52,805 nt of DNA from Gammaproteobacteria bacterium (GTDB taxonomy: Bacteria; Pseudomonadota; Gammaproteobacteria; GRL18), in NCBI GenBank assembly GCA_016744395.1, contig JADGEK010000027.1, positions 1-52,805 on the forward strand, read 5' to 3'. Shown piece after piece: positions 11,250-44,478 of the stretch; within the stretch, counting starts at the first letter, position 1; each line of letters starts with the position of its first letter. The position numbers were made by a program, and so were the translations under genes. A model generated the notes under the pieces. It did not search any database. It was not told the DNA's origin and saw nothing but the letters and a program-made list of their open reading frames with translations.

Positions 11250-11576
11250 CTATAGTGAAGAATTTTCTTTATTTTGTACTTCAGAAGTAGAGCCTTCCGC
11301 TGTGTTTGGAGAAGAGCCTTCAGCTGTTTTTAAAGAAGAGCCTTCAGCGTGTTTTAAAGAAGTGCCCTCAGCGTGTTTTAAAGAAGAGCCCTCAGCATCT
11401 CTTAATAAAGAGTCATCCTTTTTCTTTTCAGGTATTAAATCTTCATCCATTAAAATTCTATGCGCATCACCCTCCAAATCATCAAATTGTCCTGATTTTA
11501 TGGCCCAGAACAAAATAATGACCAGAATAATACCAATGATGATCATACTGGGGATTAAACCGTATATTACTTCCAT
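11250..11576 (-). CDS. ccoS: cbb3 oxidase assembly protein CcoS with repeat tail
   Basis: 108 residues. The N-terminal half is a clear CcoS: one membrane helix, then FWAIKSGQFDDLEGDAHRILMDED. CcoS is needed for cofactor insertion into cbb3 oxidase. Standard CcoS ends soon after this motif (about 50-70 residues); here an extra 45 residues follow, made of 8-residue repeats AEGSSLKH and variants. The gene lies 17 bases after ccoI, last in the ccoGHIS group. Confidence 0.88.
   Translation of the reverse strand: MEVIYGLIPSMIIIGIILVIILFWAIKSGQFDDLEGDAHRILMDEDLIPEKKKDDSLLRDAEGSSLKHAEGTSLKHAEGSSLKTAEGSSPNTAEGSTSEVQNKENSSL
11292..11411. repeat. Five tandem 24-base repeats inside ccoS
   Basis: Five units of 24 bases begin at 11292, 11316, 11340, 11364 and 11388, each starting GCCTTCAGC or close. 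They encode the AEGSSLKH-type repeat of the CcoS tail in frame, so copy-number change would not shift the reading frame. Confidence 0.85.
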
Positions 11577-23822: not shown

Positions 23823-24626
23823 TTAGCAATCGATAATATTTTTTAATATTTGTTTAAACTCTTCAGGGTGCGAAATAAAAGGTGCATGCCCTGCACCAGA
23901 CAGAGTATACAGTGACACATTATCACATAAGCTCAGCTCTTTTTGCCCTTGATATTTCGCCAGAGTATCTTGTTTACCAGCAATCAGACTAATTGGCACA
24001 TCGGTCACCGTCTTCAGTTGCTGACGCTTATCTTCTTTGAGTAACATTGTCAGCCCCATTTGCAATGCCCTTTCATCGGGTTCTCCACGAAGAAACAATT
24101 GGGTCTGCAGAATCTTAGTATCAGCCCTTACTGTGCGACTTCCCATCGTCTGAATCGCCAGAAAACGCCTTAGTGTTGCCCGATGATCGTTCACCAAACT
24201 CTGACTGAATTCTTCAAATATCCGAGCCTCCACTGCATGTTGCCAATCATCACTTTGCACAAACTTGGGAGTTGAACTGACCATGAGCAACTTTGAAACA
24301 TTAACTTTTTTTTGTGCCAATAATTCAATTGCCACCAACCCGCCCAACGACCATGCAATGATAGTCGTTTGCTTCCCTTCAAACAAAGGCTCAAGACTTT
24401 GGGCTAAGGTTCTGGAATTATAGTCACCACCCAGTTCATTTTGACCATATCCCGAACTATGGCCATAGCCTGGCAGATCAACTGAACGGATTAATTGTTC
24501 AGGGTGCAATTGCTCTAAATATTGCCCAATATCAACCCAGACACTACTATTCATTCCCCAGCCATGAATCAAGAGAATTTGTTGTCGTGAGTCCGTATTA
24601 CCCCACTCTTGATAACTGACCTTCAT
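23823..24626 (-). CDS. bioH: Pimeloyl-ACP methyl ester esterase BioH
   Basis: 267 residues, alpha/beta hydrolase fold. Nucleophile Ser93 in AWSLGG, oxyanion region [10 protein letters not shown], and the histidine in [12 protein letters not shown]. It removes the methyl group from pimeloyl-ACP methyl ester. Its start overlaps the bioF end by 4 bases. Confidence 0.92.
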
Positions 24627-25813
24627 ACCATTGCCAATCTATGCACTTTTTCCAGTGCAGACAATAATCGTTCCACATCTTTTTCCTCATGCTCCGCACA
24701 AAGAGTCACTCTTAAACGTGCTGTATTTTTGGGTACCGTTGGTGGTCGAATAGCTGTCACTAGAACCCCCTGCTCTTCTAGCATTTGACTCATTTTCAGA
24801 GCCGTTTCATTATCACCCACTAAAATGGGTTGGATAGCAGTCTGGGAATCCATCAGTGACAAACCCAGTTGTTCAGCCCCTATCCGAAATTGTTTAATCA
24901 GTTGCTTGAGCTTTTCTCTGCGCCAGGTTTCTGATTGTGAAATCTTTAAACTCATCAAAGTGGCCTGAGCTAATGCGGGTGGCATTGCTGTGGTATAGAT
25001 ATAAGCACGTGATTTTTGAATCAATGTTTCAATCAGAGCATCACTGCCCGCCACAAAGGCGCCAAAAACCCCCATTGCCTTACCCAAAGTAGCCATGTAG
25101 ATTGGCAATTGTTCCTGAGCCAGAGAATATTTTTCAGCAATGCCAGCTCCCGTCTCACCCAGAACCCCAAAACCATGGGCATCATCCAGCATAAGCCAGG
25201 CCTCATGCTGTGAGCAAAGCTCACTCAGCTGATTCACAGGAGCTAAATCACCATCCATACTAAAAACGGCATCGGACATGATCAGCTTTCTTGAAGATGA
25301 AGTGCTTTTAGTCAATTGTTTTGCTAAAAAATTCAGATCATTATGAGAATATCGTTTGAGCTGGCTACCCGAGAGAGAGGAGGATAATAAGGCAGCATCA
25401 ATAAGGGAGGCATGGTTCAATTTGTCCTGAAAAACAGTATCACCTTTGCCCATCAGAGCATTCACAATGCCCAGATTAGCCATATACCCCGTAGAAAATA
25501 ATACAGCTCGGTTTCGACCTGTGTATTCTGCCAATGCTTCTTCTAATTCATGATGCGCACGACTATGACCACTGACTAAATGGGCAGAGCCACTGCCTAC
25601 CCCATAAGTATCAATACCCTGTTTGAGTGCTTTGGCGATTTCAGGGTGATTAGCCAAGCCCAAATAGTCATTACTGCAAAAGCTCAGAACTTTTCTGCCA
25701 TTGCTCTGTAAATGAACCTGTTGAGGACCATCGGTTATTTTTCTTTGTCGGTAGAGAGACTGTTTTTTTAGTCGATGCAGATCTTTTTTTAATATGTCGT
25801 CTAAATGGTTCAT
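24623..25813 (-). CDS. bioF: 8-amino-7-oxononanoate synthase BioF
   Basis: 396 residues from the internal Met ([18 protein letters not shown]), the normal BioF start. Extending the frame would run 56 codons into a structured repeat and gives no conserved sequence. PLP-binding lysine is in ATLGKAMG; the substrate motif SNDYLGLA and the [11 protein letters not shown] region are present. It condenses pimeloyl-ACP with alanine. Confidence 0.94.
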
Positions 25814-25892: not shown

Positions 25893-26045
25893 AAAGAAGG
25901 GGCCTCGCTCGGATAAGTGCTAGTGAAAACGATTGGGAGAAGGATGGAGTTGCTTGATTGGGGACGCTGCGAGCCATCCATGGGCGCTTAAGTTCTGGCA
26001 TCCATGCCTCCACAAACCCCATCCAAGCAACTCCATCCTTCTCCC
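25893..26045 (+). repeat. Structured repeat, copy 1 (43-base flank plus long hairpin)
   Basis: A flank (25893-25935) precedes a 22-base perfect inverted repeat (arms 25935-25956 and 26024-26045), extended inward after three unpaired bases by GGGG/CCCC. The loop contains a small hairpin GGCATCCATGCC and CCATCCATGG, so it can fold into a three-way junction. Copy 2 repeats flank and loop but not the stem sequence. It lies upstream of bioF. Confidence 0.85.
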
Positions 26046-26208
26046 ACTCTTCAAGCGCAGTTATCCTCGCTCGTGTTGTCCAAAAGCAAAATCAAGAGAT
26101 AAGAAAAAGCGAAGAATAGAGTATAAACTTGAGTTTAAGTGCCCTTGCTCTGGCTGTTGCTTTTGATTTTCCCCACAAAAAACGAGAATAAATGCGGTTT
26201 GAGAGTGT

Positions 26209-26359
26209 ACGGAGGAGAGGCTTAGCTGTTTGGGGTTTGTGAAAACAGGATGTTTTCACTAAGCGGGCCATGGATGGCCGAAAAGCGTCCCCAAACAGCT
26301 AAGCCTCTCCTCCGTGCAATCGGTTTCAATAGCACTTATACGAGTGAAACACCTTCTTT
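26209..26359 (-). repeat. Structured repeat, copy 2, inverted
   Basis: On the minus strand the flank (26359 down to 26316) matches copy 1 in 36 of 43 bases. The perfect 27-base inverted repeat (arms 26209-26235 and 26289-26315) has a stem different from copy 1. Loop hairpins: GGCCAT-GG-ATGGCC and a 9-base stem GTGAAAACA/TGTTTTCAC. The 163 bases between copies (26046-26208) show no gene. Confidence 0.85.
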
Positions 26360-26394: not shown

Positions 26395-27438
26395 TCATAG
26401 TGACGCAGACTGAGCAGCACTCTGCTCCACATCACTGGGCTGATGTTTATTCTTATCACCACAACCTTTCTTTTTTTCCAAGCTCGTTTTCATACCCAAA
26501 CTTGCAAAAAGCTTCTGATCATTCGAGGCACTAGCACCTTCAGTGGTTAGGAGACGTTCGCCATAAAAGACTGAATTAGCCCCGGCAAAAAAGCACATTG
26601 CCTGCATTTCATCAGACATTTCCTCACGACCTGCAGACAATCTGACAACAGAGCGTGGCATCATAATTCTTGCCACAGCAACACTGCGAACAAATTCCAG
26701 AGGTTCAATTTCATCTTGACCAAATAAAGGAGTGCCTTCTACCTGGACCAGCATATTAATCGGCACACTATCGGGATGCTTTGTCATATTAGCTAATTGC
26801 ACAAGCAAGCTACTGCGGTCTTTGCGTTCTTCGCCCATACCAAGAATCCCGCCACTACAGACATTAATGCCCGCTTCCTGAACATTGTTCAAGGTATCCA
26901 GTCTATCTTGAAAGGTTCGAGTTGAAATGACATTACCGTAAAATTCGGGGGAAGTGTCCAGGTTGTGGTTATAGTAGTCCAGACCTGCTTCCTTTAACTG
27001 TTCAGTTTGTTCACCATCCAGCATGCCCAAAGTAACACAGCTTTCCATATCAAGGGATTTGACTGCCTTAATCATTTCCAGAACTTTGGGGAAATCTCGT
27101 TTATTAGGCCGTGACCAGGCAGCGCCCATACAAAAGCGATCAGCACCTTCAGATTTGGCTTTTTTAGCGGCACTCACTACTTCATCAATTGAAATCAAAG
27201 CTTCGGATTCAAGCTCTGTATTATGGTGCGCACTTTGAGAGCAGTAGCCACAATCTTCTGAGCATCTACCTGTTTTTATACTTAATAAGGTACTGATTTG
27301 AACACTATTAGGATCAAAGTTCGCGCGGTGAATGCTATGAGCCTGGAACAACAGGTCATTTAAAGGCAACTCAAAAAGTGCTTGTACCTCTGGGATATCC
27401 CAGTCATGCCTTAATTCATCAGCAGCTTGAGTTGTCAT
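26395..27438 (-). CDS. bioB: Biotin synthase BioB
   Basis: 347 residues, a radical-SAM enzyme inserting sulfur into dethiobiotin. The AdoMet cluster cysteines are C59, C63 and C66 in CSEDCGYC, and the second Fe-S arginine region is present ([10 protein letters not shown]). The C-terminal tail [14 protein letters not shown] is polar. First gene of the biotin run, 581 bases upstream of bioF with the structured repeats in between. Confidence 0.96.
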
Positions 27439-42952: not shown

Positions 42953-43019
42953 TGTTCTGGTCTAATAGAACTGGACACTTTAATAAGAGATAATAACTAT
43001 CAATTATTGAGGTGTCAAA

Positions 43020-43310
43020 ATGGGACAGAAACGAACATACAAACAGTATTCTAAAGAATATAAAGAAGAAGCGGTAGCCCTGGTCAAAGAACAGGGTTAT
43101 TCAGTACCAGAAGCCGCTAAATCACTGGGTATAGCAAGTAACATGCTGTATCGCTGGAAAGAGCAAATAGAATCACAGCTTGAGGGCAAATCATTGTCTG
43201 TAGATGAGCGTGAAGAATTGAAACGGTTGCGTAAAGAAGTTAAGACTTTACGGATGGAGAAAGAGATTTTAAAAAAGGCCAGTGCCTTCTTCGCGAAAGA
43301 AATGAAGTAA
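43020..43310 (+). CDS. IS3-family transposase OrfA
   Basis: 96 residues with a helix-turn-helix (VPEAAKSLGIASNMLYRWKEQ) and a leucine-zipper-like C-terminal part (EELKRLRKEVKTLRMEKEILKKA). It binds the inverted repeats. The slippery sequence A-AAA-AAG at 43271-43277 allows -1 slippage into orfB, making OrfAB. Confidence 0.9.
   Translation: MGQKRTYKQYSKEYKEEAVALVKEQGYSVPEAAKSLGIASNMLYRWKEQIESQLEGKSLSVDEREELKRLRKEVKTLRMEKEILKKASAFFAKEMK
43271..43277 (+). other. Programmed -1 frameshift site of the IS3 element
   Basis: A-AAA-AAG overlaps the codons TTA AAA AAG of orfA. After slippage, the frame stays open and reads into the QCLLRERNEVKFDFIRDN segment leading to orfB, as in other IS3 elements. 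The frame of orfB is -1 relative to orfA. Confidence 0.75.
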
Positions 43311-43366
43311 AATTTGACTTCATCAGAGACAATTCAGAGCGATTTTCAGTCACCACTTTATGTCGA

Positions 43367-44179
43367 GTGATACAGGTAAGCACTTCTGGTTACTATAATT
43401 GGAAGAAGCGTCCAGGACAGCTGATTAGTGCAGAAACTCTGAATCTTCATCGTCGAATGAAAACGTTATTTAAGCAGAGTCGTAACAGCTTGGGGAGTCG
43501 TGAACTGATGAAGAAATTATGCAAAGAAGGCTTTCAAATTGGTCGTTATAGAGTACGCAGTTTAATGAAAAAATTGAACTTAAAAGTCACACAACGCATT
43601 GCATACAAGGTAACAACAAAAAGAAATCACAAGAATGATGTGGCAAATAATTTATTAAATCAGAATTTCAATCCTGTTGCACCTAATCAGATCTGGGCTG
43701 GTGACATTACGTATTTGAAGACAGGTGAAGGTTGGGTGTATTTAGCAATTGTAATGGATCTCTACTCACGTCGTATAGTTGGCTGGTGCATTAATAAACG
43801 CATGACGACTGACTTGATAAGCAAAGCAATGATCATGGCTTACAACTTGAGACAGCCGCCTTTTGGCCTGGTATTCCATAGTGATCGCGGCTCCCAATAC
43901 ACCAGTAAGCACTATCAAAGTTTATTGAATGAGTATGGCATACGAGTAAGCATGGGTGATGTTGGAGCTTGTTGGGACAATGCAGTGGTTGAACGCTTTT
44001 TTGGAAGCCTCAAGCACGATTGGATATTTAAAGTTGCTCAACCAACTCGTGAGTATATGAAAAAAGATGTAGCGGCATATATGAGGTATTACAACCTTGA
44101 GAGGCTGCATACTGCGAATGGTGATCAATCACCAATTAACTATGAAAATTCTTTAAAAAAAGTGTCCAGTTGGACTTGA
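43367..44179 (+). CDS. IS3-family transposase OrfB (integrase core, DDE)
   Basis: 270 residues from the first possible start (GTG), though the true product is the OrfAB fusion. Contains IQVSTSGYYNW, IWAGDITYLKTGEGWVYLAIVMDLYSRRIVGW, the second Asp in FHSDRGSQYTS and the Glu in DNAVVERFFGSLKHD: the DDE triad. Confidence 0.92.
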   Translation: MIQVSTSGYYNWKKRPGQLISAETLNLHRRMKTLFKQSRNSLGSRELMKKLCKEGFQIGRYRVRSLMKKLNLKVTQRIAYKVTTKRNHKNDVANNLLNQNFNPVAPNQIWAGDITYLKTGEGWVYLAIVMDLYSRRIVGWCINKRMTTDLISKAMIMAYNLRQPPFGLVFHSDRGSQYTSKHYQSLLNEYGIRVSMGDVGACWDNAVVERFFGSLKHDWIFKVAQPTREYMKKDVAAYMRYYNLERLHTANGDQSPINYENSLKKVSSWT

Positions 44180-44478
44180 CCAGAACAGTATTACAGCGGA
44201 CATATAAAATTGCAGATAAAGAATAAGTATTGAAATTATCTAAGTCTCTATCTTCATCATATAAGTCAATCGGGATAATCATCACCTGTAAGTAAAGCTT
44301 GAGGTACAAAGTGACTCAGCTTTAAACAATAGCAAAAGGCAAATAAATGCTTTTAATAACTTCTTAGAGGTTTATTAATATTAATTAATTATCAACATTC
44401 AATCATAAATGATTGATAAACGATAAATGTTAATATAAAATACTTTTTTATTGAGTTCTTTATCGGAGATAATATGAC

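Follow-up and report, generated by a model that had tools for sequence, protein, structure and literature searches.

The window, 52,805 nucleotides in length, carries a run of biotin genes on the minus strand in the order bioB-bioF-bioH-bioC-bioD. The upstream gene bioB (biotin synthase; 26395–27438; TIGR00433, 413 bits) and the downstream gene bioF (8-amino-7-oxononanoate synthase; 24623–25813; TIGR00858, 489 bits) are separated by a gap holding two copies of a structured repeat in inverted orientation, copy 1 at 25893–26045 and copy 2 at 26209–26359. A preliminary description of the locus reported a conserved outer flank, and comparison of 25893–25935 (plus strand) with the reverse complement of 26317–26359 (minus-strand flank of copy 2) does give 36 of 43 identical positions. 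This flank recurs in other copies in the genome and belongs to the carrier element. Next to it lies a long stem that is uninterrupted in both copies, with 27 bp in copy 2 as originally counted and 23 bp, rather than 22, in copy 1. The stem sequence differs between the copies with pairing intact in each, and the loop motifs they were said to have in common were found at 25960–26019 and 26236–26292.

On the strand that we assign below to the RNA (minus for copy 1, plus for copy 2), the variable stem of copy 1 is formed by a 5′ arm at 26024–26044 pairing with a 3′ arm at 25936–25956. Between them, at 25960–26019, is a predicted three-way junction with two CA-N-GGA-UG hairpins, whose GGA triplets are at 26003–26001 and 25979–25977. 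The inner hairpins A (25997–26008) and B (25973–25983) each have a putative ANGGAY loop, assigned from the sequence and from conservation in distant copies. In the lowest-energy fold of copy 1 the two hairpins pair together and the GGA loops are not both formed. In copy 2 the arms of the variable stem are at 26210–26235 and 26289–26314, the perfect run pairing with 26289 onwards, and they enclose hairpin A (26239–26259; GTGAAAACAGGATGTTTTCAC, GGA at 26248–26250) and hairpin B (26267–26278; GCCATGGATGGC, GGA at 26272–26274). The loop around the first GGA of copy 2 is one base shorter than AYGGAY. For the module as a whole, the three-way junction proposed in the preliminary description was upheld.

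Perfect inverted repeats of at least 14 bp with a spacer of 40–90 nt were found at 24 seed positions in the window and at none in each of 50 first-order resamplings; thus at this threshold stems of such perfection are absent from resampled sequence. The window also contains tandem repeats of 24 bp in four to five units (11285–11404) and, at 42953–44187, 38-nt inverted repeats (79%) lying 1159 nt apart (TGTTCTGGTCTAATAGAACTGGACACTTT...) that resemble an insertion-sequence copy.

In the host genome (4.87 Mb in 212 contigs) the module occurs as more than 30 distinct units, 24 of which went into a covariance model. In this model 91.7% of cells are paired and both sides have changed in 27 of 34 pairs, with a covariation score of 0.577 compared with 0.177 for shuffled and at most 0.150 for slid alignments, so that the claim of pairing kept while sequence changes is borne out. 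The same model finds the module in 22 of 40 relatives and, in a sample of the class, in 47 of 369 genomes and 40 of 271 genera, where it is often multi-copy. The preliminary description had expected such dispersal, and it had named a lack of further copies, or unpaired stems in related ones, as outcomes that would tell against it; neither was found. Close pairs of covariance-model matches within the genus are arranged plus then minus on the strand used in that description and are usually 250–330 bp apart; in one distant genome (G309) the pairs have the opposite arrangement. There was no exact match to the module in viral contigs, no core-like sequence was found in plasmids or phages, and a sequence search of the literature returned no description of the repeat. 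A study of Acinetobacter baumannii DS002 used primers PS2 and PS3 between lutD and lutE (PMC11869524), and the primers for this gap hold both module hairpin sequences, CCGTACTTCCTTGTACGG and GGCGGCATCCATGCCGCC, on which the paper does not comment.

Across many different outer stems in the host genome the 5′ arm is strongly G/T-rich and the 3′ arm A/C-rich (pair counts GC 167, TA 163, AT 65, CG 51), a bias that may limit misfolding. One module copy (L005; G000:C134, ~1351–1500) is interrupted, apparently by the 3′ end of a group II intron, GTGAGAGCTTCACGTACGGTTCTGTGAGAGCC...GGGCGACTCGAC being joined straight to the TTCAAGCCATCCATGG loop.

The preliminary description assigned the repeat to no known family. 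On the opposite strand, however, it matches the Rfam family TwoAYGGAY (RF01731, clan CL00106), described in 2010 (Weinberg; PMC2864571). With 44.4 bits, copy 2 (26200–26324, plus strand) exceeds the gathering score of 43, which places the RNA on the complement of the strand first read; the CATCCATG loops noted there are CATGGATG on the RNA strand. Copy 1 (25924–26056, minus strand) scores 25.8 bits, under the cut-off. The match appeared with permissive Rfam filters on a short stretch, a default scan of the whole window giving none. A genome-wide search with RF01731, a model independent of ours, gave hits above the cut-off in three genomes of the genus (G001, 53.2 bits; G005, 50.5 bits; G009, 44.6 bits) and in 0 of 14 control genomes, and most distant copies score under it. 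The topology also agrees, with a multi-branch junction bearing two hairpins and CA-N-GGA-(Y)-G fixed in 31 distant copies. We classify the module as a member of TwoAYGGAY and its divergent copies as relatives of that family.

One distant copy (L407; G260:C1:11300-13300, at 984–1132), with a 49-bp stem without mismatch round the junction, gave our best match to the Yersinia sRNA Ysr224 (RF02770; 47 bits with the full model, E = 6.5e-8). Matches to mir-3202 and other miRNA families, all under their cut-offs, were set aside as chance fits to a long hairpin.

A helix under selection as RNA tolerates G·U and not A·C, whereas in a DNA hairpin, or where arms are simply homogenized, the two are expected about equally often. 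Over 174 distinct copies, G·U accounts for 148 outer-stem mismatches on the TwoAYGGAY strand and A·C for 37 (p = 6e-17), equivalent to 37 G·T and 148 A·C on the strand of the preliminary description. Copies inside one genome are related to each other, and the excess holds when counted by genome (18 to 3, p = 0.0015), when each position in a genome contributes a single event (86 to 35, p = 4e-6) and, in this deduplicated form, with four of the top-contributing genomes set aside (36 to 15, p = 0.0046). G·U is thus tolerated over A·C on the strand assigned to the RNA, a strand-specific sign of RNA-level selection that falls short of proof of function. Transcription-linked C-to-T mutation on the RNA strand could add to the excess, an explanation that would itself imply transcription. 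An early, smaller count (25 A·C, 15 G·T) had seemed to speak against RNA, but had used the wrong strand; the larger count, taken on the right one, reversed that conclusion.

The suggestion of selection on folding therefore stands, and of the two forms offered for it, single-stranded DNA or RNA, the strand asymmetry of the mismatches points to RNA. Were the module instead a single-stranded DNA or cruciform element of the kind seen in REP/RAYT, attC or IS200/IS605 ends, pairing would be kept because a transposase or recombinase recognizes the DNA fold. The very long, near-perfect stems (28–49 bp without mismatch in one distant genome) and the paired inverted arrangement would suit such an element, but folding as DNA brings no preference for G·U on one strand, and the 4:1 asymmetry weakens an account that, together with the evidence on mobility given below, we consider improbable. 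Another possibility is that the units are ordinary MITE palindromes under no functional selection, their arms remaining identical through templated correction (template switching at quasi-palindromes). Compensated single changes among near-identical copies (G090), some related stems that differ at several positions with neither mismatched (G260) and the MITE context all agree with this. It leaves unexplained the strand-specific G·U excess, the GGA loops that are invariant across many genera and the occurrence of one core in three unrelated carriers, and we give it very little weight.

The loops give the RNA a candidate partner. Both hairpins of the 31 distant copies have CA-N-GGA-(T)-G without variation at its C, A, G, G, A and G, whilst the GGGG/CCCC junction ends, nearly fixed in the training set, are kept in ∼60–75%; these copies were gathered by a model that contains the loops, which biases them toward conserved loops. 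At least two GGA triplets are present in 171 of the 174 copies, mostly spaced by 23–24 nt, and 10 copies contain the exact 12-mer RUACARGGAUGU. This is the CsrA site obtained by SELEX, whose bound form is an ANGGAN hexaloop, and one CsrA dimer bridges sites 10–63 nt apart (PMC7652899). The module thus presents hairpin-loop GGA motifs close to this site at a spacing within that range. That C is tolerated as the final loop base fits a hexaloop and not a closing A-U pair. Gardner and Eldai had already matched TwoAYGGAY to the CsrA motif and proposed CsrA binding (PMC4333381), and the host genome has one csrA gene. Judged by the loop sequences and their spacing, docking of CsrA on the module is likely. 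TwoAYGGAY and its link to CsrA are thus already known as predictions; the abundance of the module, its mobility and the strand-resolved RNA selection appear to be new.

At the biotin locus, the RNA strand of copy 1 is on the bio transcript and that of copy 2 on the other strand, so a transcript of either direction would carry one module in the sense orientation. The gap between bioB and bioF is only ∼100 bp in three species (G002, G003 and G014), and two others (G004 and G005), and probably a third (G015), have a module pair there with stems that are unrelated in sequence to those of the window and still paired. The pair is either one old insertion with turnover of the stems or the product of repeated insertion at one spot. 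The outer flanks in the window form inverted repeats (73% over 86 nt), and the putative carrier element here looks old. An effect of the module on bioB-bioF expression, as raised in the preliminary description, is possible.

Placement elsewhere was examined for 142 units, of which 34 lie in convergent, 57 in tandem and 5 in divergent gene gaps, 35 overlap an ORF predicted with a crude finder, and the remaining 11 are at contig edges. Some take up all the space from one stop codon to another (L322, at 3 and 6 bp from them). These positions might suggest that the module acts at gene ends as a terminator of transcription in both directions, or as an insulator, by which the carriers limit insertion damage. 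The stem is not followed by a U tract (1.9 T among the next 10 nt), and the 142 units show no orientation preference relative to flanking genes, so a simple terminator is not supported; moreover, GGA loops are not needed for termination, and avoidance of promoters is expected of any tolerated insertion. We therefore regard this role as very unlikely. Around distant single copies no consistent promoter or terminator was seen. The placement fits tolerated insertions in transcribed 3′ regions.

The means of spread is clearest in relatives. In one genome (G009) the module core lies within three unrelated short elements. The first has ends CATAGGTAGGTACTTAAG and a 10-bp target duplication (flank identity 141/170, 64 expected), the second ends AACCTGAGTTCTGGATAA and a 4-bp duplication (37/44, 23 expected) and the third GTAACTRTTCAG ends and an 8-bp duplication (68/104, 42 expected; G009 pooled with G013 and a sister genus), with p ≤ 5e-4 for the duplications of all three. 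Each carrier has terminal inverted repeats and no transposase was found inside these elements, the hallmarks, with the duplications, of MITEs. Since the three carriers are unrelated and the core is one, several MITE-like families have this module in common, and its mobility as MITE cargo is established in relatives. In other genera, such as that of G260, no common flank is left round the module.

When the outer repeat was used to look for a full-length mover, neither of the two solo matches examined had a transposase next to it. The ends of the third carrier resemble IS66-type ends, and one element of the host genome (L283; G000:C1, ~755–2475) has an IS66-type transposase flanked by similar inverted ends, GTAAYNATTCAGC, and by ATAAAATG as a perfect 8-bp duplication; it is a possible mover of the 8-bp carrier. 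The abundant IS66 copies of G013 have ends that differ from GTAAYNATTCAGC, and IS66 as the mover of the module finds only partial support. G013, a near-complete relative, contains 141 IS66-family (PF03050) matches, many of them broken, indicating massive IS66 expansion.

Y1 transposase genes, which would favour recognition of a DNA fold, occur in most of the genus. Their presence does not follow that of the module (G004 has no Y1 and 25 copies, G014 two Y1 and no copies), and none adjoins a module copy among the matches listed, so Y1/RAYT was rejected as the mover. The target duplications of the carriers (4, 8 or 10 bp) are of the kind that DDE transposons make, which is a further point against a single-stranded DNA element; REP and attC are not known to make them. 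No attC R′/R″ boxes were noticed by eye in the module, and the module behaves unlike REP/RAYT, being the cargo of MITE-like elements in relatives.

We consider it probable that the repeat, of which two copies stand head to head in the bioB-bioF gap, is a portable RNA module with two binding sites for CsrA that MITEs have spread. Each copy would be a TwoAYGGAY-type RNA made from the strand complementary to that first described, in which a long helix, where pairing alone would matter, presents the three-way junction. The two short hairpins, each with an ANGGAY loop closed by C-G, would be spaced for one CsrA (RsmA) dimer, and the module would have spread through genomes as the cargo of short, non-autonomous transposon-like elements. 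We infer that such binding would either titrate CsrA or serve as a mark on the host transcript. With the copies head to head, transcripts running in either direction through the bioB-bioF gap would display one pair of sites, and through them the biotin genes might be affected. A bolder proposal is that unrelated selfish elements each took up the same two-site RNA, giving tens to more than 100 mobile docking sites per gamma-proteobacterial genome that would jointly titrate or rewire CsrA and place operons such as bio under its control; this we hold to be possible and, on balance, rather unlikely.

Since its description in 2010 TwoAYGGAY has stayed an orphan among candidate RNAs; the present data supply a test for RNA function that tells the strands apart, natural variants by the hundred and a route of spread. 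Should CsrA bind, a global regulator of metabolism and lifestyle has target sites on mobile elements, and the carriers could connect new genes to CsrA or soak it up. The rewiring of the CsrA regulon, a vague question, would then become testable at named insertions such as that in bioB-bioF.

Several known systems invite comparison. REP/BIME sequences, REPINs and RAYTs are likewise dispersed, structured, intergenic and found in inverted pairs; the module differs in its core, in the lack of tracking with Y1 and in its RNA-type mismatches. Ysr224 is approached by L407 with a score that lies below the Ysr224 gathering score of 70. CsrB/CsrC and RsmX/Y/Z share repeated GGA-loop hairpins that fit the CsrA site (PMC7652899); however, each unit of the module has two predicted sites, where those RNAs have many, and the units are numerous, dispersed and without a recognized promoter. 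TwoAYGGAY itself has the same long stem with two short AYGGAY-loop hairpins, on the same strand, and its curated score is reached by copy 2, but the units here are highly multi-copy and inside MITE-like elements, and their loops are often AGGGAY. The 2010 table places the family in human gut, gamma-Proteobacteria and Clostridiales and does not record mobility (PMC2864571). Bacterial MITEs such as Correia/nemis, ERIC and QMITE are also short and intergenic, with terminal inverted repeats, target duplications and stable hairpin transcripts, and the text of a review of them does not mention CsrA (PMC10969869). What sets the present elements apart from these is the cargo, a conserved RNA core resembling a protein-binding site that is common to unrelated MITE families.
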